This document shows positions 6,957-33,081 of a stretch of 64,000 bases of DNA, piece after piece (position 1 is the first letter of the stretch; each line of letters opens with the position of its first letter). Under the pieces are notes generated by a model that had not been told where the DNA came from, ran no database searches, and was given only the letters and a program-made list of their open reading frames with translations. Both the position numbers and the translations under genes were made by a program. This DNA is from Methylophilus medardicus (lineage in GTDB: Bacteria; Pseudomonadota; Gammaproteobacteria; Burkholderiales; Methylophilaceae). Location: positions 1,798,001 through 1,862,000 of the forward strand of contig NZ_CP040948.1 of NCBI RefSeq assembly GCF_006363955.1, written 5' to 3'.

Positions 6957-6957
6957 A

Positions 6958-11565: not shown

Positions 11566-11635
11566 ATCTAACTCACAACATTAAATAAATTTTGAATTTT
11601 TTGAATCGCCACAAACCTTGTAAATTTTATTCAGT

Positions 11636-12931
11636 TCAATGAATGGGTATGTGTATGTTCCAAGTACCACTTACCAATTTGCAGCTGACCAAATCAAAAG
11701 GCACTACCCATAAATGCAACTCTTCATTAAAACTGAAAATAGATAAAGGTTCCATGAAATCTTTGTGGGCTGGATAAATCAACATCATGTGGCCTTGCCC
11801 ACCCATATATTTGTGACCATAAGCAAATAACTGATAAAAATCTCCTTGGCTTAATTGATACTTATCATTTGAGCTATTCAACTTGCTATTAAGCAACTTC
11901 CATTTCGTATCCAACACATTTCTTTGGTCATGCGATACCACCATTAAATCTGGCTGAAGCTGGAACCAGTTTTGATTCTCCAAATTATTCAAAGGTTGGT
12001 GATTAACGAAGTACTGAGAGGATGCTTGTACCTTTAAATAATTCGGCTTTGAAATTTGCTTACTTAAATTTGTAGCAACATAAATTTCAAACAACTTTTC
12101 CATCGAAAATAAGAAGCTTATTCCTTCTTTAGAACCTACCTGGAAGCTTGGATTGAAGTTTTGAATGATGATTTCGCACCATGGAAACACGTGCTCATAT
12201 TGCAACATAAATCGATTATGTTGCCACTTGGCTACATATTTCTCTGGATTTAATAGGCTTGGAATTTCCGCCAAGTAATGAGATAGCTCATTTGCAAATC
12301 GCCAATTCTGTGGCGATTTCGTTAGTTTCAAGATAAACATTACTGCTGTTTTAAGCAGTTTATTTTCAATTCTTTCTGGACTATAAACGTCATGCCGAAT
12401 ATTGAACCAATTAGATTTATCCGGTGATTTTCTAAGCTGCTTAGTAAGATCAATTTGACCACGAATAAACCGACTATCTTCTTCAACACGAACATAATCA
12501 TGTTTCAAACCTTTGCGATAAAGCGTTAATAACTCCCCTAAGAACTGAGCAAAAATCCACTCATGAATGGGTGTGTTGGTAGAGTCTAACGCGGCTCGCC
12601 CAGACTCGCGTGGCTTGAGTGACAACGCTGTCATCAACATGCGTTGCATAAGCTGTCTTAGTTCGGTCAGCTCTGGGTCTGAAGGCATACCTTCCTGAGT
12701 TTTTGGCAATATCTCGATAACTTCACCAGTTGGACTTTGTAAGATGCCAACATAACTATTGAGCCTTAAAAATTGTTTGCCATTTTGCTGAAGAATAGGT
12801 GCTTTACTATTCCAGCTAGCATGCAATTCGAGCAACCAATTATAAGTAGCTTGCGATACGATGCCCAAATCTAATGATCCAAAGTGATCTTGCGAGCTTG
12901 TAATCAATGCTCTTTCACGTACTTGTATCAT
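11636..12931 (-). CDS. mcrC: McrC-type nuclease subunit of a type IV restriction system
   Basis: A 431-residue protein of the McrC/LlaJI family. The N-terminal half is the family's McrB-contacting region. The C-terminal half has the PD-(D/E)xK nuclease core: QPDLMV (P327-D328) and VLDTKWK (D341-x-K343). McrC stimulates the McrB GTPase and cuts DNA between bound modified sites. The start is 2 bases from the mcrB stop, so expression is translationally coupled. Length is close to the family norm and catalytic residues are present, so it looks functional. Confidence 0.9.
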   Translation of the reverse strand: MIQVRERALITSSQDHFGSLDLGIVSQATYNWLLELHASWNSKAPILQQNGKQFLRLNSYVGILQSPTGEVIEILPKTQEGMPSDPELTELRQLMQRMLMTALSLKPRESGRAALDSTNTPIHEWIFAQFLGELLTLYRKGLKHDYVRVEEDSRFIRGQIDLTKQLRKSPDKSNWFNIRHDVYSPERIENKLLKTAVMFILKLTKSPQNWRFANELSHYLAEIPSLLNPEKYVAKWQHNRFMLQYEHVFPWCEIIIQNFNPSFQVGSKEGISFLFSMEKLFEIYVATNLSKQISKPNYLKVQASSQYFVNHQPLNNLENQNWFQLQPDLMVVSHDQRNVLDTKWKLLNSKLNSSNDKYQLSQGDFYQLFAYGHKYMGGQGHMMLIYPAHKDFMEPLSIFSFNEELHLWVVPFDLVSCKLVSGTWNIHIPIH

Positions 12932-12933
12932 AG

Positions 12934-15264
12934 CTATACTTTAATGATACCTTGATACGCCTCAGGGCAACTAAATGCACTAATATTCACATAGCTTCTT
13001 CTATCTTGAATCATGTCAAATTGCGAATTACCAAATAGCTCTGACACTGAACGCTTACCTCCTACAGATAAGAAGCGATGATCCTTTTGTTTGGAGTGAT
13101 CATTAAGAACTAAAGATATTTTTTCCCAATCATCAAAAAAATACTCTTTAAGCAAAGGTAAAATTTTATTCTTGAATATCTCTGCCAATTGATCTTCGCG
13201 TTCATTATCAGCAAGTTTTTCACGTAAACCCATAAAATAGCTGTGCCCGATTTGATGTTCTGGATCTAATAAAACCTCTATTCTTTCGTTAATGATCTCT
13301 AGCAATTGACCTATGTCTACACCATGAACTTTTATACCTTTTAAAAGATCTGGCTGTGGATTCATTTCAATAAAATCAAACCTACGGCGCAATGCTAAAT
13401 CGAGTTGAGCGAGAGATTTATCTGCGGTGTTCATCGTACCGATGACATACAAATTTTCTGGTACTGAAAACGGTTTTTTTGAATATGGGAGGACGACCTC
13501 GAGTGCATCAGTTCTACCTTTACGCTTACTATCTTCTAGTAATGTAATGAGCTCCCCAAAAATTCTAGAGATGTTACCTCTATTGATTTCATCAATAATC
13601 AATACATATGGCTCTGGGGGTAAGTCTTCTCTATGTGGCTCCAACAGCGCATGAAGCTTATCCAAATTGATTGTTTTACTTCCGAGTTCATAGAGTGTCA
13701 TTTGTGATAGAGATTTATCAAATAACTGCTCTTTTGGTTTACTAGGCTCGTATGTTTGCAGCCACTTAACTTTCCTCATTTGCTGAAAATAATTACGGTC
13801 AGCATTTTCTAAGTATTCATAATCGCCTACTACTTCAGCTATTGCCCTGAATTTATGGTTGCCATCTGAAATTATAATAAGATCATTTTTTTTAATAGAG
13901 TTGATAAATGTAAAAACTGACGTGACCGCATAATCAGTATTTGTAAGTGTCACATTAGAATCTACATAGACCTTTACAACCTCCTCCTTTGTATGACAAC
14001 CACTGAAATCAAGATTGTCACCATAGCCTAAAAGTATGTAATCGTTTTCTAGACACTCTTGGTAAATATAATCCTCATTTTCCAGCGTATTCCCTAGTGA
14101 CATTTTCCATATCCTTCTACCCTTTAAATGTATAGGATTGCTGATATTGGAAGTAGCTTTTGTGGATGCCGCCTCACTTATTTGTTTGAATACGCCATCT
14201 TCGACTTTGAACTTTAGTGCTTCGTCTTGAGAGGTATCCGCTCGAACACCTTCAATAAAATCTTCATAAGAAAAACTCTGATGAAAAGTTGTCATTGCAA
14301 TTCTTTTATCAGCAACGAGGACATCAAACCTTTCTTTAAATAACCTTCTTAGATCTTCTGAAGGCAGGTCCTTATTTTCATTTAGTATTGTCTGATACAT
14401 TTCCGGCTCAGCAATTTTTACTGCCAAGCTAATAGTTTCATATGTTTTTCCTGTACCAGGTGGCCCATATAAAATCTGATTCAAAGGCATTTTTCTGATA
14501 GCCTCCGTTACATCTAGATCAGTTTCAGATTCTGGTACTGTCTGCTTAATCGGCCTGATGCTCAGCTGATCACTATATAATGCTTTGACAAATCCATATG
14601 GGGTAACATCGGCGTTGAAACGTCGCTTAGCCTCTTCATAGTATTCTTTTAGTAGAAGCATCAATGCTATTGGCCTGTCTTTAGATGGAACCTCTTCAAC
14701 CGGATGACCAAGTTCTAATAAAAAATGTCGCAGATGCTCACTTGATGAAATAACTAGTACTTTATCGGGATGGTAAGCGCTTAATATGCGAAGCTTGCGG
14801 CCATCCCCTATAGTAACCCTTGCTTTTAAACCAGCTCTAGCAAATATCTTTTCGTCGTCGTCAATCCATAAAAGATCTTCGTCTACATTTGCATTAGCTA
14901 TTAGAGATTGAATCTTAGTCGTGTACTTCAGAGCTTCTTCTGGCGTTAAATCGCTTAGTGCTCTGTTACGATAATATTCGCCATTTTGAGCTTTATATAA
15001 GATATGACCACGCGACGTTCCTGGCATGTACCTGCCTAATACCTTTTCAAGCCCCCGTTCGAGCCACCAACAAAAATTTTCAGGTAGTGAATCTTTACCA
15101 AGACAATATTGATCAAGTGTAAGACTTTCTATACTAGTGGGAGGGTATTTAGCAATAAAGCTATCGTAGCGTGCATCATTATTAGTTCGTTGCGTGTAAA
15201 GATTTTCCGATATTAGTAACTTACCAAGTTTCTGAAATACTTCAGATTCAAAATTAAAAGTCAT
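12934..15264 (-). CDS. mcrB: McrB-type GTP-dependent AAA+ motor with an EVE-like domain inserted in the ATPase module
   Basis: A 776-residue protein. Residues 1-250 form an N-terminal region of unclear fold, presumably target recognition. The AAA+ motor starts at YGPPGTGKT (266-274) and continues to FHQSFSYEDFIEG (327-339). About 150 residues then intervene (383-530). They begin with RIWKMSLGNT and contain ENDYILLGYGD and INSIKKNDLIIISDG, which resemble an EVE/PUA-like modified-base reader. The motor resumes with Walker B VLIIDEINRGNIS (554-566) and the McrB signature GTMNTADKS. Recognition of methylated or otherwise modified cytosine is known for the family; the target here is not predictable. 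It is first in a minus-strand operon with mcrC, the sacsin-like gene and the NERD helicase. The 176 bases upstream hold its promoter. Confidence 0.9.
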   Translation of the reverse strand: MTFNFESEVFQKLGKLLISENLYTQRTNNDARYDSFIAKYPPTSIESLTLDQYCLGKDSLPENFCWWLERGLEKVLGRYMPGTSRGHILYKAQNGEYYRNRALSDLTPEEALKYTTKIQSLIANANVDEDLLWIDDDEKIFARAGLKARVTIGDGRKLRILSAYHPDKVLVISSSEHLRHFLLELGHPVEEVPSKDRPIALMLLLKEYYEEAKRRFNADVTPYGFVKALYSDQLSIRPIKQTVPESETDLDVTEAIRKMPLNQILYGPPGTGKTYETISLAVKIAEPEMYQTILNENKDLPSEDLRRLFKERFDVLVADKRIAMTTFHQSFSYEDFIEGVRADTSQDEALKFKVEDGVFKQISEAASTKATSNISNPIHLKGRRIWKMSLGNTLENEDYIYQECLENDYILLGYGDNLDFSGCHTKEEVVKVYVDSNVTLTNTDYAVTSVFTFINSIKKNDLIIISDGNHKFRAIAEVVGDYEYLENADRNYFQQMRKVKWLQTYEPSKPKEQLFDKSLSQMTLYELGSKTINLDKLHALLEPHREDLPPEPYVLIIDEINRGNISRIFGELITLLEDSKRKGRTDALEVVLPYSKKPFSVPENLYVIGTMNTADKSLAQLDLALRRRFDFIEMNPQPDLLKGIKVHGVDIGQLLEIINERIEVLLDPEHQIGHSYFMGLREKLADNEREDQLAEIFKNKILPLLKEYFFDDWEKISLVLNDHSKQKDHRFLSVGGKRSVSELFGNSQFDMIQDRRSYVNISAFSCPEAYQGIIKV

Positions 15265-15440
15265 AAATGCTCCAGCTAGATATAGCCAATTTTATTAATA
15301 TTGTTACAGCGAATTACCAAACTATTTATTTCTTCTAAAGTCACAATGTGGACTTCACCCTTTCTGGTAGACATTCATAATGTTAAAACTGAAACGGAGA
15401 AAGCGGAATGAAGCTCGGTAACTTATTATGAAACTCTTAT

Positions 15441-16059
15441 TTAATTTGAGAGCTTGAGTTGAGGAAAATCAGTATACCAATCTGAAAATCCCTTTTGATC
15501 ATGCGCATCCCTCAGCAGCACTCTTGGAGTCATCCAGCTCGTAATATTTTTCTTAGGTATTTCATGCCAGCTAAGATTGAATGAACACATGCCTTTATCG
15601 TCAAAGATTCCAGCTCGCTGTAAGGTAAATGATCATGAATCCAATAAGCTAAAAGCGCCAGTCAGCACCTTCTGCATACTTATCCATAAACCATGGAATT
15701 ATCACACATGCAGTAGCGCGTTTTTTTTCATTTTCATCTGGCTTATCCCATATGTGATGAGCAAAGTTAGATTCATTACTAGCACAGTTATGCCCATGTT
15801 CATTACCAAATGAATTAACTGATAATGACCTGTAAGCTGACCTCACTGCAATTCGACCAAATGTGGCATTTAGAGGCTCTAATAGCTCTTCACAAAGAAG
15901 TTTTCCAACCTCTATCGCTAAATCTGTATTTTCTGGCAAATTTGGTATTCCATATAGGTTTGATATTTCACTATATAGAAATTCACGCATAAAGAAGTTT
16001 TTCGATAATCTCACCCGTCCAAATTTCTCTAGTGCGTCATATGAGGTTATTGCGCGCAT
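15441..16059 (-). pseudogene. M15-like peptidase gene broken by two frameshifts
   Basis: From ATG 16059 the reading frame gives LSKNFFMREFLYSE, the opening of peptidase M15A-like proteins, and ends early after EGADWRF at 15649. Downstream the family's next block reads in another frame (LAYWIHDHLPYSELE, about 15607-15651), and the final block in a third frame (IFDDKGMCSFNLSWHEIPKK to KLSN, ending with TAA at 15441-15443). Each break is explained by one missing base, the first in a TTTT run. Restored length is about 206 residues. Relatives are cell-wall or phage-type metallopeptidases. Two independent breaks make true decay more likely than a single sequencing error, but raw reads were not available. 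Confidence 0.75.
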
Positions 16060-16183
16060 ATTAAATTCTTCCTTTCTAGGGGCTTGATGTACTCAAAATC
16101 TAAATTAGTTAATCATCTTTGAGCTGGGAGGAATAGCTAAACATTTTCTAGATATTTACCTGAAATTCAAAATTATTAGGAGC

Positions 16184-16786
16184 TTACTGGCTCATTCTTG
16201 AAATGATGTGGGAAATTGGAATAGCCAAACAATGATCCTGATAATCTCTCCTTGTACCAAAAACCAAACCGATTAATTCACCCAAACTGTTTACTAAAGG
16301 GCCGCCTGAAGAGCCCGGATGGCAAAAGGTAGACGTTTGTAATACTTGTCCAACATCCGTATTAATTTGCCCAACCATTACTCCCTGACTCATAGCGGCG
16401 TATTGGTTTGGATAACCATACGCCCAAATACTTTCACCAATTTTATATTGCGCATTCATTCGAACCGGATTCCCTTCGAACTTTGCCCCTTTTAAAAGAC
16501 ATGCATCTAAAGATCCAAGATTTTTATAACTTTGAGTTGGATAAATATTTCCTGTTTTTCGATTCACCACTCTAAAAAATCCGTTATGTCTAACCACATG
16601 GCAATTAGTAAGTATCGTATCTCTAGCAATTAATACCCCTGTGCCTGTGTGCAACTGGTTCCCATCTTCAATTTCAATTTTATAAATTGCATCTTCAATT
16701 GAATAAGGGTTTCCAGCAAAGCAGATATTGACCATGGTGAGCGTCATCGCGAGTGCTACCGCACTTCTTTTCAGTAAATCAATCAT
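16184..16786 (-). CDS. Exported trypsin-like serine protease
   Basis: A 200-residue protein. A signal peptide is clear: MIDLLKRSAV, a hydrophobic core, then NICFAGN, with cleavage after FAG or near it. The mature part is a chymotrypsin-fold protease with the triad histidine in ILTNCHVVRH, aspartate in GSLDACLLK, and serine in HPGSSGGPLVN. It should act in the periplasm or outside. It stands alone between the decayed peptidase gene and a divergent HTH gene, and there is no PDZ domain. Trypsin-like proteases appear in several anti-phage systems, but those are usually cytoplasmic, so a defence role is doubtful here. Confidence 0.85.
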   Translation of the reverse strand: MIDLLKRSAVALAMTLTMVNICFAGNPYSIEDAIYKIEIEDGNQLHTGTGVLIARDTILTNCHVVRHNGFFRVVNRKTGNIYPTQSYKNLGSLDACLLKGAKFEGNPVRMNAQYKIGESIWAYGYPNQYAAMSQGVMVGQINTDVGQVLQTSTFCHPGSSGGPLVNSLGELIGLVFGTRRDYQDHCLAIPISHIISRMSQ

Positions 16787-16886
16787 CCATAACCTTTAAC
16801 ATTTTCTAAATTCTGTCTCATACTTAGCCTAAGATGAACTCCTCAAATTGTCCACTTCAATAAAGCTAAATTTTGGGAGTCGCGAT

Positions 16887-18113
16887 ATGTCTGTTAGCCG
16901 TGAAAAACTTTACGAACAAATCTGGTCTGAACCGATTAGAAAAGTATCTGAAAACTATGGCGTCTCTGATAGTTATCTCGTTCGAATTCTAAAAAAACTA
17001 AACATTCCGAGACCTCCTAAAGGCTACTGGGCAATGAAGGCCGTTGGAATTGAAGCAGAAAAATCAAAACTTCCAGCCCCCAATCCTGGCGATCCTATCA
17101 CCTGGTCCAGAGATGGTGAAACAGAGTACGCGCCAGAATCTGCAGCACAACCCAAAACTTATAAGACAAGGTCAAAACTATTAACACATGGCCTAATTAA
17201 AGAGGCCAGAGAGCACTTCAGTAATGTTCGAGAGTCGCATGGGGAATATCTCAAACCTTATAAAAAGCTGTGCATTGATCTTATTGTTTCAAAGGAAGGT
17301 TTAGAAAGAGGTCTCGAAGTTTCCAATAATCTTTACTGTGCACTACATCAGTTAGGTCACAGGGTACAAATTGCTCCTGATCACAGAGACACGCATATGT
17401 TGGATGTCGATGAACGAGAGAATCCGAAATCGACAAATCATTACTCGAATATATGGCGGCCATATCGTCCAACGATCACCAAAATTGATGATGTGTCGAT
17501 TGGACTAACTATTTATGAAATGTCAGAAGAGGTTGAGGTTGGTTATCTTAATGGCAAGTATGTTCCTATAAAAGAATACCTAAAGAGCTCACTAGCAAAG
17601 ATCAGATCACCATTCAGCTGGACAACAACTAAAGAAATACCTTCTGGTCGCTTTTGCATTCAAGTCTATTCAACTTATTTAGGCAACAAATGGGTTAAGC
17701 AATGGAGAGAGACCAAAAAAGGGGAGTTTTCAAAAACCATGAAACCCATCCTAGAGGAGCTTTGCAACTCAACAAACGAAATCAAGAATCTAATTACGCG
17801 TGCTAAGGATGAGGCTGCTGAACGAAAACGCTTGTGGGATGAGCAACGAGAAAGAGATCGCATTGCATCTGAAGAGAGGCGTATTGCTAAAAACTTGAAG
17901 GACAGTTCTGACGAACTAAATCAAATTATTGAATCGTGGGGGAAATTAAAGCACATCGAAGAGTTTTTTAAAGAGGTGGAATTGCGCACAAATAAATTAG
18001 CTGATGATGAGCGTATGGTGGTTTTAGCGAGATTAAACAAAGCAAGGGCTCTTATTGGGCCTTTAGACGCATTTGAACATTTGCAAAAATGGAAGTCACC
18101 TGAGGAGCGATAA
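16887..18113 (+). CDS. HTH-bearing protein of unknown function found in accessory regions
   Basis: A 408-residue protein. Residues 1-50 (SREKLYEQIWSEPIRKVS, then VSDSYLVRILKKL and PPKGYWA) form a DNA-binding-type helix-turn-helix that recurs in uncharacterised proteins of islands. The middle has no motif I recognise. Residues about 300-360 are highly charged and likely a coiled coil (RKRLWDEQRERDRIASEERR). I prefer ATG 16887, which has the ribosome-binding site GGGAG at 16875-16879, over an in-frame ATG 13 codons upstream that has none. It is not in an operon. Function is unknown. Confidence 0.65.
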   Translation: MSVSREKLYEQIWSEPIRKVSENYGVSDSYLVRILKKLNIPRPPKGYWAMKAVGIEAEKSKLPAPNPGDPITWSRDGETEYAPESAAQPKTYKTRSKLLTHGLIKEAREHFSNVRESHGEYLKPYKKLCIDLIVSKEGLERGLEVSNNLYCALHQLGHRVQIAPDHRDTHMLDVDERENPKSTNHYSNIWRPYRPTITKIDDVSIGLTIYEMSEEVEVGYLNGKYVPIKEYLKSSLAKIRSPFSWTTTKEIPSGRFCIQVYSTYLGNKWVKQWRETKKGEFSKTMKPILEELCNSTNEIKNLITRAKDEAAERKRLWDEQRERDRIASEERRIAKNLKDSSDELNQIIESWGKLKHIEEFFKEVELRTNKLADDERMVVLARLNKARALIGPLDAFEHLQKWKSPEER

Positions 18114-18306
18114 CCGTTCGGTAAAAGTATACTGTTGTAAGGGTTTTAAACCTTCTAAGATACAACATTAACTTGTGTTCAATATGGAACTAAGTTAATT
18201 TAGGTACCGATATAGACTTACTAAAACTAACAATAAATTTGAATAATAAAATCTAATTTCCGGACTGATGTTTCCACACCGGATTGTCTACTTTGGGAGA
18301 GAGCAC

Positions 18307-19404
18307 GTGTTCCAGAACCTGAGCATCAACAGAATCATCATTCACGAGGTTTATAAACGAAACACTGATAAAACCATCAAAGAGCCGAATTATGGCCAGC
18401 AACTTATCCAGCTAGACGATGACGCAAAAGCTGCGTTGCAAATTCGTGTTACTGAGGCGCTAGGCACGTCAACTCATGGTATCGAGATGACCATTGAGAA
18501 CTCTTCGGACGAAAGCCTGTGGCACTTGGCCAGTCAAATTGTTGAAACTACCGGAGACGACGCTGCCTTCATTAATCTCTCGCAACTCGTTACGGCAGAG
18601 CTTGCAAAATCTCAAAAAAGCAGAGGGATTCCTGGCGGGATTTTAGTCGTTATTGAAGGCACTTGTGGTCATCCAGCACGAAAATTAATGTGTGTGATTA
18701 AGGCTGAGCCACATGCAGGATTCATTAAGAGGCAAGAGCAAGGTCAGCTTTTTCTGGAGTACCTAAAGGACCTGATCCTCACTCCCCAATCTAAACTGTA
18801 CAAGATCGGCGCGTTCATACAAGCCGATCTCGCAGCGGTTGCAACCCCAGAGCAACCCTCAGCCCAATGGAAGGGATACTTATTTGATGATCTTGCTACC
18901 AAGGGCAACCGGGAAGGCGCTGCGCAATACTTCTACGAAACCTTCTTGGGATTAGGTTTTCCAACCAATAGCGCTTCCTTGACTAAGGAATTTCACAAAT
19001 TAACTAAAGACTTCATCAAGGGTGCCAATATTGATGAAGAAAAAAGAAGTGACCTTCTTAATGCACTTACAACCTATCTGAAAGTAGACACGAATACTAC
19101 CGTGCAAGTAGGCGCATTTTCAGATAGCTTTATATCAGACGATAACTTAAAAGATGCTTATAAAGAATACATGGTTCAAAATGAGTTTACCTTGAACGCT
19201 GTTCACAAGGATTTAACGGAAGTGGCTTCAGAATTGAAACAACGAAAAATCGTGTTCGGCCACAACATCAAACTGATTGCTCCCCCTAAAGAGTTTGCAG
19301 ACTATGTCAGCATGACCGTGATTGATGGCACTCCAACAGAAACCAACCCAGCGACAAAATGGACTCAGATTATTATTCGTGACCGAATCATGGATCAAGA
19401 ATGA
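18307..19404 (+). CDS. NdpA/YejK-like nucleoid-associated protein
   Basis: A 365-residue protein of the 37-kDa nucleoid-associated (NA37/NdpA) family. The start VFQNLSINRIIIHEV matches the family's opening (...I-HRV-LHEI), and GGILVVIEGTCGHPAR with FIKRQEQGQLF is typical of its middle. I choose GTG 18307, which follows GGGAGAGA, over an in-frame ATG 13 codons upstream without a ribosome-binding site. The next gene overlaps by four bases (ATGA), so the two proteins are made together. Housekeeping NdpA is normally a solitary gene; a copy coupled to a RelA/SpoT-domain gene inside a transposon suggests a dedicated system. It may sense DNA or bind foreign nucleoid. That role is inference. Confidence 0.8.
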   Translation: MFQNLSINRIIIHEVYKRNTDKTIKEPNYGQQLIQLDDDAKAALQIRVTEALGTSTHGIEMTIENSSDESLWHLASQIVETTGDDAAFINLSQLVTAELAKSQKSRGIPGGILVVIEGTCGHPARKLMCVIKAEPHAGFIKRQEQGQLFLEYLKDLILTPQSKLYKIGAFIQADLAAVATPEQPSAQWKGYLFDDLATKGNREGAAQYFYETFLGLGFPTNSASLTKEFHKLTKDFIKGANIDEEKRSDLLNALTTYLKVDTNTTVQVGAFSDSFISDDNLKDAYKEYMVQNEFTLNAVHKDLTEVASELKQRKIVFGHNIKLIAPPKEFADYVSMTVIDGTPTETNPATKWTQIIIRDRIMDQE

Positions 19405-20393
19405 CCGAAGACCAGTTCCGCAAGCGCTGGGATACCGAAAAACCGGTTTACCAGGCTTGGGCAGACTTCATTAAGCACAACATAGAGCAAGCGTTAGCCG
19501 CGTCAATTGCTCCGACAACGCTCGATTATTTTCTGAAGATCCCAGTCAAGCCAAGGCTTAAACTTGAGTCAACGTTGATTGATAAAGCCTTCCACCGTAA
19601 GCAGTATCAAAATCCTTATGACGATGTCCAAGATAAAGTTGGCATGCGCTTCGTCGTGCTGTTGACGAGTGATATCAAGAAAGTTTGCCAGGTAATCGAA
19701 TCTGAAGAGAGTAAGAAATTCTGGGTATTCTCCAGAGATCGCGACTATGAAATCGAACGGTTGGCCAAACCACTGGAGTTTACTTATCAGTCTGTACACT
19801 TCGTTTTAAAAGCTACTGCAGGCAATGTATTTGGTGGCATCAACATCCTTGAGCACACACCATGCGAGGTGCAAATCAGAACGCTATTGCAACACGCACA
19901 TAGCGAATTAACTCACGATACGATTTATAAACCTAAAACGACAGCGCAACCTGGAGTCAAGCGCACTGTTGCCAAAAGCATGGCTTTGATTGAAGCAACC
20001 GATGAGTTCTTTGAAAAAGCCATGCAGGATATTGAGGAAGCTCTTAAACCTCAAAACGACATTCTGAATTTGCTCAAAAAAATATACACCGACAACGTCG
20101 GCACGGGCGTGGGAGACGAGCAATCCAATCAGCTTCTTACCGATACCTACATAGATCTTTTGCAAGCACCTGATGTTGGCGAAAAGATTTCGAAATTCCT
20201 TGAGGAAAAATCCTTCATTTATAAACGTGTCAATGAACGACGCGCCAGCAAGCATCTTTTTTCTCAGCCGGGCATATTGTTAAGCTATTACTTGGCTTCA
20301 AAAAACCCCGCTCAAACTAGGGGATTGTGGCCTTTCGAGATAGATGATCTGGCACTGATATTCAGTGACTTAGGCGATAGAATGCCGGATTGA
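19401..20393 (+). CDS. RelA/SpoT-domain nucleotidyltransferase (alarmone-synthetase-like)
   Basis: A 330-residue protein. Residues about 40-175 form a RelA/SpoT synthetase fold: KPRLKLESTLIDK (R52, K54, S57), QDKVGMRF (D78, R83), YQSVH (129-133), and CEVQIRTLLQHAHSEL (E156, Q158, R160, H165). These are the ATP- and acceptor-binding positions of (p)ppGpp synthetases, so a pyrophosphokinase or related activity on a nucleotide or RNA is plausible. There is no HD hydrolase, TGS or ACT domain. Residues 180-330 are a helical C-terminal extension without recognised motif. It overlaps the NdpA-like gene by four bases. Toxic small alarmone synthetases and CapRel-type anti-phage proteins share this fold; the NdpA pairing is unfamiliar to me. 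Confidence 0.82.
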   Translation: MTEDQFRKRWDTEKPVYQAWADFIKHNIEQALAASIAPTTLDYFLKIPVKPRLKLESTLIDKAFHRKQYQNPYDDVQDKVGMRFVVLLTSDIKKVCQVIESEESKKFWVFSRDRDYEIERLAKPLEFTYQSVHFVLKATAGNVFGGINILEHTPCEVQIRTLLQHAHSELTHDTIYKPKTTAQPGVKRTVAKSMALIEATDEFFEKAMQDIEEALKPQNDILNLLKKIYTDNVGTGVGDEQSNQLLTDTYIDLLQAPDVGEKISKFLEEKSFIYKRVNERRASKHLFSQPGILLSYYLASKNPAQTRGLWPFEIDDLALIFSDLGDRMPD

Positions 20394-20445
20394 TGTGGAG
20401 GATTCTCGTTCCATACACGCCTCGAAGGTAAAGTTGTATCTAACT

Positions 20446-21048
20446 TTAAGCCCCATGTATGTCATTGTGACACTTATCGAAAATTGTCAGGAGCAAATTG
20501 GCTTTATCGGGCAAGTTGCTACTTTGAATAACCTTCCTGGCCTCAGCCAACGCATACCACTTGAAGTCCAGGACTTCCGTCATGTTTGGAACTGGTTTTA
20601 TTGAATCTTGCTTATCAATAATGATCGTGCATTTCCAGTATGCCTTTTTGGTCATGCTAATATGCTCCATCCAAGTTCCTATTGCATCATCGGCTACGAG
20701 TCTTTCGTTTCGCCTATCTTTGATAAGCGGAATAGTGGCGATATATCTAATCGATTTTATGTTGTTTGAAAGTAATTCCTTACGAATTTTACTATCTAAC
20801 CCGAACTCTTGTGATAAACATCTATCGACTGCATCTTTAAATGAATCCTTCAGGTTCACACCTTCCTGGGGCGGCATCCACCGATCATGATAAATAGACT
20901 TCGCTAACAAAATAGAGGAATCAGGTTCTCGAGTTATTACACAAACTACCACCTGGACTCTTGCACCCAGCAAGCGGGATATATTTTTACGATCGGCAAC
21001 CCATTTTATGGGCGACACAGTTTTTGACACTAATTTATACCATGACAT
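20446..21048 (-). CDS. Nudix-fold protein with degenerate Nudix box
   Basis: A 200-residue protein with a Nudix-like core. WMPPQEGVNLKDSFKDAVDR (57-76) then CLSQEFG (77-83) aligns with the Nudix box, but the REUxEE signature reads R76-C77-L-S-Q80-E81. Two of the three metal-binding glutamates are thus replaced. The protein may be a weak hydrolase, use other ligands, or be a nucleotide-binding regulator. It is convergent with the RelA/SpoT gene, 52 bases away. Nudix enzymes can hydrolyse (p)ppGpp, so a counteracting role is conceivable, but the altered box makes this a hypothesis only. The family member is otherwise unassigned. Confidence 0.6.
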   Translation of the reverse strand: MSWYKLVSKTVSPIKWVADRKNISRLLGARVQVVVCVITREPDSSILLAKSIYHDRWMPPQEGVNLKDSFKDAVDRCLSQEFGLDSKIRKELLSNNIKSIRYIATIPLIKDRRNERLVADDAIGTWMEHISMTKKAYWKCTIIIDKQDSIKPVPNMTEVLDFKWYALAEARKVIQSSNLPDKANLLLTIFDKCHNDIHGA

Positions 21049-21189
21049 TTTGTTCTTCTTATCTATTTTTAGAAATTGATGTAGATTTTTGGAAATTTAG
21101 AGCATATTAATTTTAGATGTGAATAGCCACTAACTTTTCATACATTATTCAGATCAGCAACTAGCCTGATTTTAGCCTTCATAACTACA

Positions 21190-21564
21190 CTAAAAAAGAT
21201 CTACTCTAAACCTTATATACCGAGTCTTCGCAGTTAACACTTTAACTCGACCTTGTCCTGGGTTGGTTTTATAAGTAGCTTCAATTAGACCAGCAAGTAC
21301 CAAAGCATTAACATCACGCATTACTGACCTTCTACTTCTATTTAGCCTTTCCGAAACATCACTAATAGTTCCAGGCTCCTTCATGATGGATCGCAGTAAA
21401 TTCAATCTTGCTGGTGAAATTAACTTCCTAAGATCTTCAAAATCCTCAAAAGTTAAGATTAACTCTTCTTCAAGAGTCTCACCTGCATCCGCAGCTCTAG
21501 AAATAAGACGCCCCCTCACAAAAAAGTTTGAGTCAGTTCCAGTAGTGATTGTTACTTTCTTCAT
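21190..21564 (-). CDS. HTH protein resembling HVO_A0114/TumA-type antitoxins
   Basis: A 124-residue protein. Residues 45-105 form a winged helix: ISPARLNLLRSIMKEPG, then ISDVSERLNRSRRSVMRDVN as helix-turn-helix, then a wing ending GRVKVLTAKTRYIRF. This layout resembles HTH antitoxins that pair with DUF6516 (TumE) toxins. No such toxin gene stands beside it: the 86 bases upstream are too short, and downstream is the Nudix gene. It could be an orphan antitoxin or a local regulator. The ribosome-binding site before ATG 21564 is weak. Confidence 0.6.
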   Translation of the reverse strand: MKKVTITTGTDSNFFVRGRLISRAADAGETLEEELILTFEDFEDLRKLISPARLNLLRSIMKEPGTISDVSERLNRSRRSVMRDVNALVLAGLIEATYKTNPGQGRVKVLTAKTRYIRFRVDLF

Positions 21565-21650
21565 TGAACTATAAAACTTCGCCTTCAGTGTAAGCCTTGT
21601 TGTTAATCCATAAGAGATAGTCTTGCGCTTGCAAAATATGTGAGTGAACT

Positions 21651-23105
21651 TTAAGAAATGAGCAATTTTTCTTTTTGATTATGAAGTAATTTTTTAATTG
21701 GACCACAATCGTTAGGCTTCTCATGCCCAGCACTTCCTTGGATGTATTTTCTGACGAGAGTTTCTATAAGATTAACGGCCTTACTATCTGTACAAATAAA
21801 ACCAACTGGCATTGTGACTGGATAGCTCTCTGGAAATGACATATGGTAGACAACTACAGCTAGCTCGCGCTCTAAAGCTAGGACCTCAACATTCCCCCCC
21901 AAAAAGCCCTCTCTGATGCCGTGAGCATTTTCCAAGTCAGGATCTAACTCATTTTTCCACTGTTTGATCGCTCTTTGATCCTCTGAATTTTCTATAGGTA
22001 AATAGAGCGTTGGAGAGTACAGGGTCTTGTCTTTTGTTTTTGCTTTATTGTAAAAATCGCTTAACGCAACATGTAGTCGATTGCTTTTACTCCAGTATGG
22101 GTCACTAGATGCCAACCAAATAAAAGATCTTTGATCGTCATTAATGCCATTTTTGATACGAGAATTCAATGCTGGGGCCAAGTGCTTTTGTAATAACGCC
22201 CAGTTTTCTTCAGAGTATAGTGGGCCAATAAAGGTAATTCTCTTAGCGCTATTCTCTTCAATTTTATGAAGGTCTTCTAAAAAATTTAGATTTATAGAGT
22301 GTGTCTTAGACTCAATTAATTTGATTGTGAAATCATCGTTGATTTGCATCATTGCCTTGGCAATCTCAATCATGTTATTTGGCCTAGCTAAGCGATCTAA
22401 TTCAATCGTAATAAGCTGTTGCACATAATCTGAATCATTTAATATTTCAAAATCTTCACGCTCAACACTTCTACCTTGTTCATCAACATTGAAATTGACT
22501 GTTAGGCGAAGAGGCATTTGCCCGATTTTGTTAACTGTGTTCACAGTGTATACAGTGGGATTATCTTTTTCATCTTGAGTAAGACTTTTTGAAAGAAGAT
22601 TCTTATTTAAAATTTCATGGAACTGATGCTGGAACGCCTTTTCAACCAGACTCTCACTCTTAGCAATACTCTCAGTTGCAACTGGGAGTGAAATCCCTGA
22701 TTTCCACTTATCAGAGCGAAGATTCCCATGGCAAGAGAGTGTAGCCAAATCAAAACATAGCCTTGCCCAACTATCTTGAAGTAGGGCTAGTTTTGGAGCT
22801 TCTCCCAGGTCTGAGAAATACCCGATTGATTTCTCCGTGAGCGCTAATCTCCCTGTTTCATTAAGCATCAACTCCTCTCGCGTAACTAAGTCTGCTACTG
22901 CCTCATCAATCTCTCTACGACTAAATCCAAAAAAGACAGAAATCTGGCTTTTGGTCATTGGTGACAAATGAACAAGCCTCAGAACGAACTCTCTGACAAA
23001 CGGCAGTCCTCTTTGACTGACATAAGAAAAATGAATATTGAATCTTTGAGCGGGTAATAAAAAATCAACCGCATGGTATTTAAAAGTACGATCCAATCTA
23101 ACCAC
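21651..23105 (-). CDS. Partner protein of the kinase-helicase; N-terminal winged helix, otherwise unknown
   Basis: A 484-residue protein whose start overlaps the kinase-helicase stop by eight bases, so the two are translationally coupled. Residues about 28-95 look like a winged helix (FVREFVLRLVHLSPMTKSQI, then REIDEAVADLVTREELML). The C-terminal half has recognisable alpha/beta character (KRITFIGPLYSEENWALLQK near 290-310 and MPVGFICTDSKAVNLIETLV near 440-460) but no motif I can name. In type I Mokosh systems, a helicase-kinase is paired with a phospholipase-D-like protein. I looked for an HxK(x)4D motif here and found none. Function is unknown; partnership with the preceding gene is well supported by the overlap. 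Confidence 0.6.
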   Translation of the reverse strand: MVRLDRTFKYHAVDFLLPAQRFNIHFSYVSQRGLPFVREFVLRLVHLSPMTKSQISVFFGFSRREIDEAVADLVTREELMLNETGRLALTEKSIGYFSDLGEAPKLALLQDSWARLCFDLATLSCHGNLRSDKWKSGISLPVATESIAKSESLVEKAFQHQFHEILNKNLLSKSLTQDEKDNPTVYTVNTVNKIGQMPLRLTVNFNVDEQGRSVEREDFEILNDSDYVQQLITIELDRLARPNNMIEIAKAMMQINDDFTIKLIESKTHSINLNFLEDLHKIEENSAKRITFIGPLYSEENWALLQKHLAPALNSRIKNGINDDQRSFIWLASSDPYWSKSNRLHVALSDFYNKAKTKDKTLYSPTLYLPIENSEDQRAIKQWKNELDPDLENAHGIREGFLGGNVEVLALERELAVVVYHMSFPESYPVTMPVGFICTDSKAVNLIETLVRKYIQGSAGHEKPNDCGPIKKLLHNQKEKLLIS

Positions 23106-26100
23106 CTGTTTTCTTCTTTTTTGCTGCTATAAATTTATAACCGTTTTGCTCACCCATCTCACTCATAAAGGCAACAACCTTCCCCAATGGCTTATCTTTA
23201 TTGTGAGTTGTCCACATTTCTGCATTGCCTACTATCAGTAGCCTATCCATTGCCCTGGACATTGCGACATTAATACGATTAGGCGCTCTTAGGAACCCTG
23301 GACTGCGTTGTTTATCTGACCTTGTAAGACTCAAGATAATAATTCTGTTTTCTTTACCTTGATAACTATCAACAGTATCAATTTTGACCAACTCTTTGAA
23401 ACCTTCACTCCAAATCGCCTGATTGAATTTCTGTCGTAACAATCGCTTTTGCTCTGCATACATGCAAATAACACCAATCAAAGCCTCGCCCTTATCTTTA
23501 AATTTTTCTAAGTCATTTAAAAACAGTTCATTAACGGAAATTTGTTTAAGAATCTCAATAATTTGGTCAGCCTCACAGCGATTGTAAATACTCACCCCAC
23601 GATCACCTAGATGATTTGCTGCATCTTTAAAAGATGAAGTATCCAACCAAGTAACTGATGTACGAAGAGCTTCAGGTGCTCTTTTGTAAATATCAGGGAT
23701 CACTCGAGGACCATTAACAAGCTTGCCATCATAAAATGTCTTTGATACTAAGTCGCCAATAGATGGCGCCATTCGATATTGCGTCAGGAGCGTTGCACTT
23801 GTTTGCTTTCCATACTCTGAGTTAAAAGCACGAGCAAAATCACTTCTAAGAATTTCATCTAACTCTGCATGTTTGTCATTGATTCCTAATCGTCGGGCTA
23901 ATGCAGCTTTATGTGCATCAGAATACAAGGGTGGCAATTGCAGATGATCTCCGACTAAAAGCACGCGCTTAGCAGATTGTATTGCGATGGCAAGTTCGCT
24001 AGCGATTGATCGAGCAGCCTCATCAATAATAACGAAGTCATAAATATTGTCCTGAATTCCAATATGACCCTGCCCAATCCCAACGCAAGTTCCAGTAACT
24101 AGTTGTCTAGAGCGTGCGTAGAACTCATCAAGATTAACTCTCTCAGCCGACAAAGCCTCTTGCATGTCTCGTGAAATCTTAGCTAAAGCCCTAACTCTCC
24201 TAACCTCACTAGGACGAACGTTATACTCTGAACAAAGCTTGGATATTAAGAGTGATTTAGCTTCAGAAATATTGCTCTCTTTTGAAAATGGAATACCATA
24301 ATCCACGTAGAGAGTTGTTCTAATACTATTATCCATTTCTGCAGAAATCTTCTTAAGAGCTTTTAAATCAATTTCATCATCAATACGTTGCAAACTATTT
24401 AACATCGCCTCTAGATGATCTATCTGCTTGAAAAGCTTTAACTCTACGTCTACAACTGCGGATATGAACTCTGGATCAAGTCCTAAAGCATCCGCAAAAG
24501 TAGCAACTCGATAGCGATATTCCGCATTGAACAACTCTCGTTTTTCAGCCGTAATTGCGTGAGAATAGACATCTTTAAGCCCATCTGACACAGCACCTTC
24601 ACGATTACTGAATCGAACTACCTCTAGCTCCGTACCAAGCCTGTTGCAATGCTTTCTGATTCTCTCCGCCGCAGTGTTAACGGCTTCATGTGACTGACTA
24701 ACCAAAAGAATCCTACGTACATCAAGCTTTTCTACAAGGAAGTGAACGAATGCAGAGATAAACTCCGTCTTCCCAGTGCCAGGAGGCCCTTGCAATAAAG
24801 ACAAAGGTCCATAATTTAAAAGCTTAGAGAAGGCTTCTCTCTGTTGCTCGTTGAGACTCACTCTATTTCCGTGTTTGTCCTCACGATCATATCTGGCAAA
24901 ATCTTCATCATTTACAGAGATGTTGTAATGTATTGCTGGCTCTTTGCACCCCGGGTCGAAGAAATCAACGAGTGCAGGCAAGACCCCCTCCCTATCAAGA
25001 AGACGTTCAAGAGCCGCTTTACGCTTACGATAAGAAGCCCGGTCTTGCTTTGTCCTAAAGTAGACTGAATCACCATCTTTGAGAGCGTAAGCCGCACTGC
25101 GAATCTTATTTAATCTAACTTCATTCAAAGCTGATTTTTTAAGCAGCACCTCTCCAATCACTTTTTCCGAGCCATCTCTATCAATGAGAAGAGCCTCAAC
25201 TTCATCTGTGCTTACAAAAGCCCCTAAGGGATCAACATCTGCCTGATAAGGAATAATCAATTCATTGTCGTTATCCAAAGGCTTAAAATAGGCTCCAATC
25301 AATTCAATATTAGGATTTGATTCTGTCTCAGTATCAAGTATTGCCCGCCATAACGATTGCGTAGAAATATCGGCAGCAATTTCGGCATACTCCCTATCAA
25401 TTGATGCGTCAGCTTTCTCGAAAATATCTTTGAGCTGATTGCTAAGCTCTGACTCATCAATTTCAGGTTGAACAAATTCAAGAAGCTCGATTGCCCTGGA
25501 AAAAGCTTCATTATCACTGAGATAATCCGATAACCCTGAGAGTAGTGTAAGTCGACCAGGCTTAATACAAATCGGCCGATTGATCTCGAATTGACTCTCT
25601 TCGGCTGTCCTAAAAGTTACATCAGATCTCGCTCTTGGAAGTGATGCTCCAACAAAGCCTTTTTTAGCTTTGTCATAGAAAGCAACAAACGAACCTCCAA
25701 TACCGGAAAAGGTCACTGCGTAATCAGTTTTGCCAAGTTTAGGCTTATCAACTTTGACATAGAGATGCCCATTATCTGGAAAAATGGTAAAAGACTCGTC
25801 AATACCGCTAAGTATTAATTCAATAAGTTCATGTTTTGGCGCCTCGTTTTGCGTTCTCAAGGCCTTTTTAAACCGTCCTAAATCTCTGAATCCGAAATCT
25901 AAATCGCTTAACTCAAACTGAACAACTTCAGCGACTTTAGGATATTCGTTGGACTCCGCACCCCATTCCATCCCCAGTAGCTCACACGACATTCGCATGA
26001 CTGCGAAAATGTCCCTTTGCTGAGAAGAACTAGCATCTATATTTTCAGGGCTGTATCTATGATTTTTAGCTTCTGCTGAATTGTGGCAAAAGTCTGGCAT

Positions 26101-28065
26101 GTCAATCAGGTAAATATCACTGCCACTATTAGCAACCATAACGTTTTCAGGGTGTAAGTCACCATGAGTAATGCCTAGACCATGAAGATACTCGATAGCA
26201 TCGGTCAATTTCTCAATCAAGCCAATTTTGGCCTCATTTTCCGAGACCATGTTTGCCCAAGTCACTCCATCAACAATATCAGTTACCAGATACATACTGT
26301 TCGACCTGGAAGCCAAGCCGTACTCATGAATCCGTGGTAAGCAAATCGGATTTACCGTTGCAATTTTATCTAACTGTTTTAGAAAAGTTAGAACCCTGAA
26401 GTTGCTGACAGCAGCATCTCCTTTTCCGCCTACATTTAACCAGGCTTTTACTAATCTGCCACTGGAGTAATAGACCTCTTTATCATCTGTCCCTACCAGA
26501 AAATCCCCTTCATCAGGAAACTGTCTCGTGTGGTTTATAGGGTGTCGATAGGCATCTAATTCAAAATCATCAAAAGTAGGGATTGATTCAGCATCAGGCT
26601 CTGCTCGCTTGAGTGCATCAAAAAATTCTGCAGCATCTTTGAATTTGGCTGTCACAGCCTCAAGAATAACTCCAACATACCAGTCCTTGCTTGCGAGTAT
26701 GTCACCCTCGATGCTTTCCAAACTTTTAGAAGACATTCTCTTCGCACTTAAGAGATGCCAAGCTAACAGGCCAAGCGCATGAACATCTTGCTGAAATGGA
26801 GTTATTGACGCCCCCTCAAGCATGTCCTTAATCTCTGCAGCGCCAACTGACAGACTGCTTCGATAATCGCCAACCGTTCCTATCGGTTGATGGTAAGCCG
26901 AAATGAAGTTAGAGAGCGCAATTTCCTTGGATGGTGAAAGCCACAAACTATGATCCGCAATATCACGGTGAGCAATTTTGATTCCATGTAGATCAGCAAA
27001 CTTAGCGATCAACAGCTTTGTTAGGTTAAGCCTGTCGACCATATTAAATGACTGACCATATTTCCCAACGAACTCGTTGAATCTCACATGTCCGGGAGGT
27101 AATTCGTAAACCTCACTATATTGAGATGTAACTTCATCTCTCTCGAAACTTGTCAGAGAGCGAAGACAATGGTTGTAAAGATCACGGTTTTGATAGTTAA
27201 TGAATTGCAAAACCTCTCTTTCACGAGACACAATTTCCGCCCGACCCTGAGAGGTGATGGCTTTGTTGCCGTCAAGCTTTTTAAAATCCCAAACTCTAAG
27301 TAAGGAATCCTTCCCCTTTGATATCTCTGAACTTGCCAAGTACTCTTTATAGACAGAATTGGGGTGTTCAAAAATTGGTTCTACCGCTGTAAAGCCTCCA
27401 ATCCTTAGAGCTTTAGGAGCTGTATTTCCTTTAAGAAACAACTGATCAAAAATTGGAAAATCTTGATTTAGAACTTGAGCATTCGGATGAGGACGGAAGA
27501 AATGATTAAATTTGCCCTTGTCGGAGAAACGAAGAAAGTCTTGAAGAGACAGAGTATGTTGACGCTCAACTTCTGGGAGCTGACTAAAATCGGCGTTCCC
27601 AGTCATTACAACAAAGAAATGAACTTGCGGCACATGATGCTTATTAGTAAATTGGGATGAATATCTTTTTAATTTATTTTCTAATAAGAATTTCTTGTTT
27701 CTCGTGACAGTAACCGGTGAGCGCCCCATATTCTTATCGCCCTTAAACCAATTATCACCACTTAACGTAATTGGATCACGATTCCAATCCTTCAACTCAA
27801 CTACGATAACATTGCAGTGAGTAATGATGACTAAATCGAACTCTCCCTCTTTTCCCTTAGCGTCAACAAATCGAAATCCGGCATACCCCTTCCAGGGGAA
27901 CATGCTGTCCCGTCCAAGCCCACTCGCTGCGAGTTGATCTCTTAGTGAACCTCCTCTTTGTGAGGTTGCCCGTTCAGCAGCAGTAATACTAAACGCTTGC
28001 CCAATTTTTCTAATTGCTTCGGCCTCATGCTCTTGAAGGCCACCGTCCCAAATCTCGATTTCCAA
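23098..28065 (-). CDS. NERD - tandem protein-kinase-like - SF1 (Upf1-type) helicase fusion, Mokosh-like
   Basis: A 1655-residue protein. Residues about 25-170 hold a NERD nuclease-like domain (EFDLV, D77; VVELKDW, E90-x-K92). Two kinase-like domains follow. The first has HRDIADHSLW (366-375) but SNF where DFG is expected. The second has HGDLHPENVMV (634-644) and LIDMP in place of DFG, so both may be atypical or inactive. The last 600 residues are an SF1 helicase of the Upf1/COG1112 kind: GPPGTGKT (about 1092), VIIDEAARS (about 1348), GDHLQLPPL, QYRM, SYQGKE and NVAMSRA. Such fusions resemble MkoA of Mokosh and PglW-like kinases. It precedes the 484-residue partner gene. An anti-phage role is inferred from architecture and location. 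Confidence 0.82.
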   Translation of the reverse strand: MEIEIWDGGLQEHEAEAIRKIGQAFSITAAERATSQRGGSLRDQLAASGLGRDSMFPWKGYAGFRFVDAKGKEGEFDLVIITHCNVIVVELKDWNRDPITLSGDNWFKGDKNMGRSPVTVTRNKKFLLENKLKRYSSQFTNKHHVPQVHFFVVMTGNADFSQLPEVERQHTLSLQDFLRFSDKGKFNHFFRPHPNAQVLNQDFPIFDQLFLKGNTAPKALRIGGFTAVEPIFEHPNSVYKEYLASSEISKGKDSLLRVWDFKKLDGNKAITSQGRAEIVSREREVLQFINYQNRDLYNHCLRSLTSFERDEVTSQYSEVYELPPGHVRFNEFVGKYGQSFNMVDRLNLTKLLIAKFADLHGIKIAHRDIADHSLWLSPSKEIALSNFISAYHQPIGTVGDYRSSLSVGAAEIKDMLEGASITPFQQDVHALGLLAWHLLSAKRMSSKSLESIEGDILASKDWYVGVILEAVTAKFKDAAEFFDALKRAEPDAESIPTFDDFELDAYRHPINHTRQFPDEGDFLVGTDDKEVYYSSGRLVKAWLNVGGKGDAAVSNFRVLTFLKQLDKIATVNPICLPRIHEYGLASRSNSMYLVTDIVDGVTWANMVSENEAKIGLIEKLTDAIEYLHGLGITHGDLHPENVMVANSGSDIYLIDMPDFCHNSAEAKNHRYSPENIDASSSQQRDIFAVMRMSCELLGMEWGAESNEYPKVAEVVQFELSDLDFGFRDLGRFKKALRTQNEAPKHELIELILSGIDESFTIFPDNGHLYVKVDKPKLGKTDYAVTFSGIGGSFVAFYDKAKKGFVGASLPRARSDVTFRTAEESQFEINRPICIKPGRLTLLSGLSDYLSDNEAFSRAIELLEFVQPEIDESELSNQLKDIFEKADASIDREYAEIAADISTQSLWRAILDTETESNPNIELIGAYFKPLDNDNELIIPYQADVDPLGAFVSTDEVEALLIDRDGSEKVIGEVLLKKSALNEVRLNKIRSAAYALKDGDSVYFRTKQDRASYRKRKAALERLLDREGVLPALVDFFDPGCKEPAIHYNISVNDEDFARYDREDKHGNRVSLNEQQREAFSKLLNYGPLSLLQGPPGTGKTEFISAFVHFLVEKLDVRRILLVSQSHEAVNTAAERIRKHCNRLGTELEVVRFSNREGAVSDGLKDVYSHAITAEKRELFNAEYRYRVATFADALGLDPEFISAVVDVELKLFKQIDHLEAMLNSLQRIDDEIDLKALKKISAEMDNSIRTTLYVDYGIPFSKESNISEAKSLLISKLCSEYNVRPSEVRRVRALAKISRDMQEALSAERVNLDEFYARSRQLVTGTCVGIGQGHIGIQDNIYDFVIIDEAARSIASELAIAIQSAKRVLLVGDHLQLPPLYSDAHKAALARRLGINDKHAELDEILRSDFARAFNSEYGKQTSATLLTQYRMAPSIGDLVSKTFYDGKLVNGPRVIPDIYKRAPEALRTSVTWLDTSSFKDAANHLGDRGVSIYNRCEADQIIEILKQISVNELFLNDLEKFKDKGEALIGVICMYAEQKRLLRQKFNQAIWSEGFKELVKIDTVDSYQGKENRIIILSLTRSDKQRSPGFLRAPNRINVAMSRAMDRLLIVGNAEMWTTHNKDKPLGKVVAFMSEMGEQNGYKFIAAKKKKTGG

Positions 28066-28113
28066 TTTAAGTCCTATTTATTATGTTTTTTGTTTACTCT
28101 ACGACTTGTTAGA

Positions 28114-28230
28114 TCATTTTTTAACTGACCTTAACTTCTTATTTTTCTTTCTCAAGAAAATCGCTCCAGCAAAAGCAGCAATCGTGCAGATTATTGTGAC
28201 TACTAATAATGCATATGCAACAACAAGCAT
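28114..28230 (-). CDS. Small single-pass membrane protein (38 residues)
   Basis: ATG at 28230 is preceded by an AGGA ribosome-binding site and opens a 38-codon frame. The product is one hydrophobic helix (MLVVAYALLVVTIICTIAAF, then AGAIF) followed by a basic tail (LRKKNKKLRSVKK). Topology would be N-out, C-in. It lies between the RHH-like gene and the kinase-helicase gene on the same strand. A similar open frame by chance with such a clean hydrophobic/basic split is unlikely, but there is no homology support. It could be a membrane effector or a small regulator. Confidence 0.45.
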   Translation of the reverse strand: MLVVAYALLVVTIICTIAAFAGAIFLRKKNKKLRSVKK

Positions 28231-28279
28231 TTTAAAGTCCTACACATTTATACAATAATTAGTTTACCCTCTTCAGGGA

Positions 28280-28651: not shown

Positions 28652-28704
28652 GATTTAGCTCCATCTCTAAGTCCTCAGAATTCGCAGAAAATTAGTAAAT
28701 TCGA

Positions 28705-30036: not shown

Positions 30037-30050
30037 TTAATTCTTCGTAA

Positions 30051-33075: not shown

Positions 33076-33081
33076 AAAGGT

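Follow-up and report, generated by a model that had tools for sequence, protein, structure and literature searches.

The gene pair and its conservation

The subject of this study is a pair of neighboring genes in Methylophilus medardicus, located within a stretch of 64,000 nucleotides of the contig NZ_CP040948.1 (positions 1,798,001 to 1,862,000) that is referred to below as the window. The first gene encodes an NA37-like protein with the fold of YejK, the second one a RelA/SpoT-type synthetase (Table 1). An initial sequence-only reading of the window had assigned coordinates, strand and a four-base overlap (ATGA) to these genes, all of which proved to be right. The longest frame of the NA37 gene starts at an in-frame ATG at position 18268 and comprises 378 amino acids (aa). 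We prefer the GTG at position 18307, which is preceded by a purine-rich stretch, because the resulting protein fits better to the lengths of the unbroken NA37 relatives (345-378 aa, mostly 354-366 aa). Promoter-like sites number 5 versus 4.6 expected and terminator-like sites 4 versus 2.2 expected. A NUDIX gene (20446-21048) is convergent with the synthetase gene.

Table 1. Features of the gene pair and its genomic island (positions in the window)
Feature	Positions	Strand	Remarks
NA37-like (YejK-fold) gene	18307..19404	+	first gene of the pair; 365 aa from GTG 18307
ATGA overlap of the two genes	19401..19404	+	suggestive of translational coupling
RelA/SpoT-type synthetase gene	19401..20393	+	follows the NA37 gene; 330 aa; hydrolase domain absent
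Catalytic core, residues 52-177	19554..19931	+	R52/K54/K62, D78/R83, Y129-H133 G-loop, E156/Q158/R160, Q164/H165/E169, H172/Y176/K177
Helical C-terminal extension, residues about 214-330	20040..20390	+	secondary structure and confidence of the predicted model
Genomic island carrying the pair	5011..46475		about 41.5 kb; flanks 41 bp and 775 bp apart in two same-genus relatives

The association of both genes is conserved over the whole set of closer relatives. A scan of genome contigs with three paired proteins as seeds yielded 91 relatives of the synthetase, from which the 11 weaker ones were discarded and 80 kept. In all 68 closer relatives (L006-L073; 67 near-full-length synthetases and the truncated L067), the synthetase gene is immediately preceded by NA37, be it the gene, a portion of it or a remnant. 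A match to the NA37 profile was found at this position in 66 of them, including two that are cut by a contig edge (L013, L019) and two that are broken (L010, L037). Of the remaining two loci, L009 has the C-terminal part of NA37 next to a contig edge, and L067, in which both genes are reduced, has a C-terminal NA37 remnant in front of a shortened synthetase, whose match covers residues 5-204. None of the 12 core-only relatives of the synthetase has an upstream NA37 gene. The NA37 gene precedes the synthetase gene in every pair examined, and a spacing of -4 was found in 55 of the 69 rows that show both genes. Decay of the synthetase next to an intact NA37 gene was observed in L005, a plasmid record of Neisseria gonorrhoeae, and in L017, where the synthetase is interrupted after residue 303 and its last residues follow about 4.1 kb downstream in an insertion-like arrangement (L017:6001-11068). 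The alignments are of different extent: the 12 core-only loci are absent from all of them, A3 further omits L005, L017 and L067, A4 further omits L005, L009, L010, L013, L019, L037 and L067, and A5 and A6 additionally omit L003, L004 and the near-copies L071 and L072.

The reverse comparison, starting from NA37, gave a corresponding picture. NA37 matches are present in 50 of the 399 genomes of the order; their 55 rows include eight that were not examined, the window's own row and two rows in one region, leaving 45 other places. Three of these score 347-533 bits with the profile of the paired subtype and all three are followed by a synthetase gene, whereas the other 42 score less than 32 bits or give no match and none of them is followed by one, some of these loci covering about 1.5 kb per side. 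In the plasmid collection, eight records contain a relative of the synthetase. An NA37 relative is present as well in the four records with a synthetase coverage of 80% or more (Ochrobactrum, Klebsiella and two from N. gonorrhoeae), and the four with a partial synthetase match are absent from the list of NA37 matches. A Streptomyces plasmid carries a diverged pair, whose synthetase (L132:6190-7173; 71 bits with the synthetase profile) is annotated as "hypothetical protein". The sequence-only reading had named a lack of conservation of the pair as grounds for giving up its interpretation, and this outcome did not occur. That the pair represents a real, portable two-gene unit is well supported.

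The NA37 protein and the synthetase

The first protein of the pair matches the NA37 family (PF04245) with 53.2 bits, well above the gathering cut-off of 24.6, and is thus a member of the family; all 61 members of alignment A6 match PF04245 at E <=1. It falls short of the NCBIfam equivalog model for YejK (NF001557; 16.5 bits versus a cut-off of 341), and there is no second NA37 match in the same genome. The AlphaFold2 model of the protein has a mean confidence (pLDDT) of 87.7 and its best match in the PDB is YejK (9be2; Foldseek E 7.9e-10; VIA-align Z 14.3). The root-mean-square deviation (rmsd) of 10.0 over 303 residues indicates that the domains may be arranged differently from those of YejK. 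The next matches are structures of KwaB with Z scores of 5.3-5.5, which is weak (Z below 8) and equaled by a human kinetochore protein at 5.3. A kinship with KwaB was considered but is not supported by sequence: NA37 is the sole Pfam family of the window protein at E <=1, without a match to the KwaB family (PF16162), and a profile comparison with a single KwaB sequence (from 1 of 185 class genomes) gave nothing. KwaB is also not among the 25 of 35 Pfam families listed for the other 60 members of A6, and this kinship remains a lead only. At E <=0.01 no second Pfam family is listed for either protein of the pair.

The synthetase matches the RelA_SpoT family (PF04607) with 51 bits (cut-off 27). 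R52, K54, K62, D78, R83, H133, E156, Q158, R160, H172, Y176 and K177 are invariant in the 69 aligned proteins including that of the window, and the G-loop tyrosine Y129 is conserved in 68 of them. The residues Q164, H165 and E169, which are located C-terminal to the EVQIRT motif, are likewise invariant in the family. The catalytic core therefore looks intact, in agreement with the initial statement that the residues for ATP and acceptor are preserved. The same reading had described hydrolase and regulatory domains as absent. This holds true for the hydrolase domain, but the protein possesses a helical C-terminal extension that is modeled with confidence. The extension has a lower mean conservation than the core (0.43 versus 0.63) and is hardly covered by matches to solved structures, which mainly span residues 1-211.

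The structure model of the synthetase (pLDDT 94.8) is most similar to RelP (6ewz; Z 18.9, rmsd 2.8, 194 aligned residues) and RelQ (5ded; Z 18.5). Lower scores were obtained for CapRel (7ztb; Z 13.4), Tas1 (Z 11.3) and FaRel2 (8pu3; Z 8.0), and this ranking is one of structural similarity. The designation as CapRel-like can hence be retained as an analogy, but the fold is closer to the (p)ppGpp-making enzymes RelP and RelQ. By position, R52, R83 and Y129 would correspond to the CapRel residues R79, R116 and Y155, which are named in PMC9712102. The acceptor-side motif QH..SEL resembles MH..SEL of L153, a long RelA/SpoT protein of the same genome, and is less like MNFWATIEH of YjbM in the alignment. 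The genome has two further RelA_SpoT matches, whose open frames comprise 742 and 740 aa and which we take as long RelA/SpoT proteins. GDP/GTP is the favored prediction for the acceptor because of the RelP/RelQ-like fold scores and the motif shared with long RelA/SpoT proteins. According to PMC12691689, (p)ppGpp-making synthetases can inhibit growth upon cytoplasmic expression. The only NCBIfam model listed for the synthetase is the YjbM equivalog (NF053588), whose cut-off of 320 is far above the score of 33.9 bits. The PADLOC candidate PDC-S33 is matched with 38.2 bits, at model positions 54-174 of 349 and thus not over most of its length, and also by 64 of 65 relatives at E <=0.001.

Mobile elements, the SLATT gene and the genomic island

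The paired subtype is rare and its distribution is scattered. Of 398 phylum members, 3 contain it, as do 3 of 187 genomes of the family, with the window's own genome counted in both. The loci span Pseudomonadota, Thermodesulfobacteriota, Bacillota, Verrucomicrobiota, Kiritimatiellota, Myxococcota, Nitrospinota and Bacteroidota; their source genomes include several metagenome bins, which are possibly misassigned. Near-identical synthetases in Pseudomonadaceae and Alteromonadaceae (L027, L028) are indicative of horizontal transfer. A relative of the same genus (G468) harbors the pair on a contig other than the one with the site of the window's island. In Escherichia coli, two distant-mode searches, which more diverged copies would escape, detected the pair in 6 of 5,426 genomes, each time in an integrase-linked element; four of the six carriers were checked with profiles, and the assignment of BEC1-S17-ESBL-07 (BEC1) and CEC15 rests on annotation. 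The elements of KFu023, BEC1 (whose integrase has an internal stop) and SCU-102 adjoin a tRNA-Thr gene, and in M37H the pair is located beside guaA together with conjugation genes. In L725 and CEC15 it resides in prophages at guaA, the position in CEC15 being deduced from the identical integrase record of L725, since the CEC15 stretch starts within the integrase gene. We take both prophages to be P2-like on the basis of their gene names. The pair is also present on a conjugative plasmid of Klebsiella and on the Ochrobactrum plasmid.

Among 699 neighboring genes from 71 loci, the most common recurrent family, which looks like a tyrosine integrase judging from its sequence, occurs in 8 loci and the next one in 6. 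A scan of viral contigs with the synthetase resulted in two pattern matches and no relative, and the phage collection comprises three records with a core-type synthetase, none of them with an NA37 protein. Two of these records are Mycobacterium prophages that have the same length, and the third is a filamentous Vibrio phage of 8.1 kb; their synthetase-like genes (L156:2950-3969, L157:1947-2957) lack NA37.

In 11 loci (L004, L021, L043, L046, L047, L057-L059, L062-L064), the pair is preceded by a small gene of the SLATT/DUF4231 type. Their synthetases are separated from all others in the tree by a branch with a support of 98/98. The gap to the pair amounts to 5-24 bp in nine of these loci and to 129 bp in L043; the called frame of L059 overlaps with the NA37 gene. 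Two hydrophobic segments were recognized by a crude count in 10 of the 11 frames, and none in the called frame of L021. The Pfam scores for SLATT are partly below the cut-off, and L059 and L063 were found solely by a custom profile or are among its seeds; this profile has matches in 12 of 75 regions, nine of which are its seeds. The E. coli strains SCU-102 (SLATT_1 with 86.9 bits; cut-off 41), KFu023 and, by annotation, BEC1 likewise have an upstream SLATT gene, and a downstream convergent one is present in L094. The stretch around the window's pair (9001-29400) gave no match to the SLATT profile. In E. coli SCU-102, genes of the DprA and RecQ type directly follow the three-gene version (L098:11977-15398) and perhaps represent another defense unit.

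In Methylophilus medardicus the pair is part of a genomic island. Its flanks (up to 5010 and from 46476) are only 41 bp apart in L159, from which the island is absent, and 775 bp in L164, two of seven loci compared from the same genus. In three others of these (L160, L162 and L163) the right flank lies outside the 16 kb compared. The site looks like an insertion hotspot, because the same-genus loci L161 and L165 carry different inserts at the same position. The island contains McrBC genes, a type I restriction set, and homologs of MkoA and MkoB of Mokosh, of TmtA of Timantti and of TnsD and TniQ. Four candidates for additional members of the system, i.e., the upstream 421-aa gene, the serine protease, the 136-aa gene and the NUDIX gene, were rejected, as none of them has a blastp relative beside the other pairs in 75 regions.

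Several genes of the island deserve mention in their own right. The Timantti-like TmtA (6958-11565; 1040 bits) adjoins a NERD-helicase protein (5250-6956), and the Mokosh-like MkoA and MkoB occupy positions 21651-28065. An McrB-like AAA protein (12934-15264) matches PDC-S02 models of PADLOC with its residues 385-530 (approximate borders), a part that we guess to be an EVE-type insert. A small trypsin-like protease with a hydrophobic N-terminal stretch (16184-16786) matches the protease part of a reverse-transcriptase-protease defense model. The TnsD and TniQ homologs are located at 34489-35961 and 45153-46319, and three minus-strand genes encoding 324, 660 and 443 aa (28280-33004) are possible counterparts of TnsA, TnsB and TnsC in a Tn7-like element. 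For the latter three genes, the only matches are one to AAA and one to an endonuclease, both below the cut-off, and NCBIfam gave nothing.

Interpretation of the pair

We consider the pair to be a mobile two-gene growth-arrest module that is most likely directed against phages or other mobile elements, and assign a probability of about 0.5 to this reading. It is based on the toxin-capable class of the enzyme, the mobility of the pair, its patchy occurrence and the context of the island. The NA37 protein and the synthetase would bind each other, and the former, which we guess to be a sensor, would act as the controlling subunit that silences the enzyme until it perceives infection, foreign DNA or a change of the nucleoid. 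The released synthetase would use ATP as pyrophosphate donor, with GDP/GTP as the most probable acceptor, yielding (p)ppGpp, and adenosine nucleotides or tRNA as less probable ones, and growth would be halted before the phage finishes. In one gammaproteobacterial clade, the SLATT membrane protein may be a third component that serves as a further effector or as a membrane anchor or sensor. A more specific proposal, which we make tentatively and with some doubt, is that of a new immune class. A sensor with the fold of a nucleoid protein would read the state of the DNA or an attack on the nucleoid and directly switch on a dedicated (p)ppGpp-type synthetase, resulting in a phage-triggered private stringent response for which SLATT was recruited in one lineage.

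Several observations weigh against the growth-arrest reading. The genome-contig scan was seeded with three paired proteins, and the pairing therefore characterizes the clade of these seeds. A strong correlation between the distance matrices of both proteins (r 0.958 for 64 loci; best of 2000 permutations 0.274) speaks for the pairing, but the permutation does not eliminate shared ancestry. DNA binding by the NA37 protein, which is suggested by the family name, is not favored by the mostly acidic character of the paired subtype (median isoelectric point 5.5, range 4.6-9.1, window 5.4); eight other NA37 proteins are likewise acidic (5.2-5.4). The motif pattern used for the acceptor side gave no match in the second long RelA/SpoT frame (L154). 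In L010 a full synthetase frame is accompanied by a truncated NA37 gene, of which only residues 276-360 were found at the locus, and in L037 by an NA37 gene that is split into two frames, possibly through a sequencing error. Together with the reverse case of L005 and L017, there is thus no sign of NA37 as an indispensable antitoxin. The PADLOC test of neighboring genes revealed no enrichment of defense functions, with 81 families from 100 neighbor proteins versus 159 from 100 controls. The neighbors were sampled from 397 eligible proteins (150-800 aa) of L006-L073 and drawn from 49 loci, and the controls from 148 proteins of L074-L085 and of 17 further regions with NA37. Gene calling relied on a crude script, 25 families are listed per output, and the presence of accessory synthetases close to restriction genes makes the control a poor one.

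The broken NA37 genes of L010 and L037 also bear on the explanation of the pair as a toxin-antitoxin addiction module of mobile elements, with a toxSAS-like synthetase as the toxin, the large NA37 protein as the antitoxin and the stability of the element as the benefit. This scenario agrees with the leading position of the NA37 gene and the 4-nt overlap, the location on plasmids and integrative elements, and the lack of any other constant partner among the neighbors examined. Yet both loci retain an intact synthetase frame, the fold scores of the enzyme favor RelP/RelQ over the toxSAS enzymes, and the best match of the NA37 protein is YejK; no known toxSAS antitoxin fold is among the 50 structural matches listed for its model, which proves and excludes nothing. 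We regard an addiction module as unlikely.

Less likely still is a nucleotide second-messenger system, in which infection would induce an alarmone-type signal with NA37 as the sensor of the trigger, and the two-helix membrane protein SLATT would kill the cell where it is present. The upstream SLATT genes in the 11 loci of one clade and in the three E. coli elements, as well as the downstream one in L094, are in line with such a function, but most pairs including that of the window lack an adjoining SLATT gene, which accordingly cannot be the general effector. Similarly improbable is a role in the physiology of the element or the host without any function in defense, with NA37 organizing or silencing the DNA of the element and the synthetase tuning transfer to the growth state. 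The naming of NA37 proteins as nucleoid-associated, the presence of the pair on several unrelated types of elements and the participation of NdpA2 in the control of PAPI-1 transfer, according to PMC8565334, all count for such a regulator. A further paper (PMC12409358) is irrelevant, because its nucleoid-associated protein is Fis. However, among the neighbors compared no constant gene of an element accompanies the pair across P2-like prophages, integrative elements, plasmids and the TnsD/TniQ island, and portable cargo is the better fit.

The pair is close to several known systems, from which it differs in some respects. In toxSAS and CapRel systems (FaRel2/ATfaRel2, CapRel-SJ46), a single-function RelA/SpoT synthetase with the same core fold is likewise under the control of a partner or partner domain, and CapRel, like the pair, occurs in prophages. 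Their mechanisms are known, and the partners are pseudo-zinc-finger, Tis1-like or Panacea domains according to PMC11782079 and PMC9712102. The partner described here is instead an NA37/YejK-fold protein of 365 aa that is encoded by the first gene, and the core of the enzyme is nearer to RelP/RelQ by its fold scores and carries a helical C-terminal extension of its own. RelQ (YjbM) and RelP (YwaC) are the nearest solved structures (Z 18.5-18.9), but the synthetase of the window differs from them in its 330 aa with the additional C-terminal region, in the constant NA37 partner and, compared with MNFWATIEH of YjbM, in the family's acceptor-side motif QHA.(S/A)EL. NdpA/YejK shares the Pfam family with the window's NA37 protein and is its best structural match. 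The latter nevertheless represents a separate subtype that is mobile and paired, in contrast to the 42 unpaired NA37 genes of the order. The combination of a membrane protein with a DNA-binding protein in Kiwa (KwaA-KwaB) is reminiscent of what SLATT and NA37 might form, but Kiwa consists of two parts without a synthetase, as described in PMC12904381. In accordance with the initial statement that no such system was known to its author, no paper on the pair came up in a limited literature search, which does not cover bioRxiv and most subscription journals.

If the growth-arrest reading is true, the pair represents a module whose controlling subunit is kin to the little-understood nucleoid protein NdpA/YejK. 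It would offer a route into the function of NA37 proteins and link an enzyme of the stringent response to the sensing of DNA or invaders. The compact copies in P2-like prophages of E. coli make direct testing in laboratory strains possible. Mobile elements would carry their own alarmone synthetases, and the constant partner of these enzymes would be neither a hydrolase nor a known type of antitoxin.

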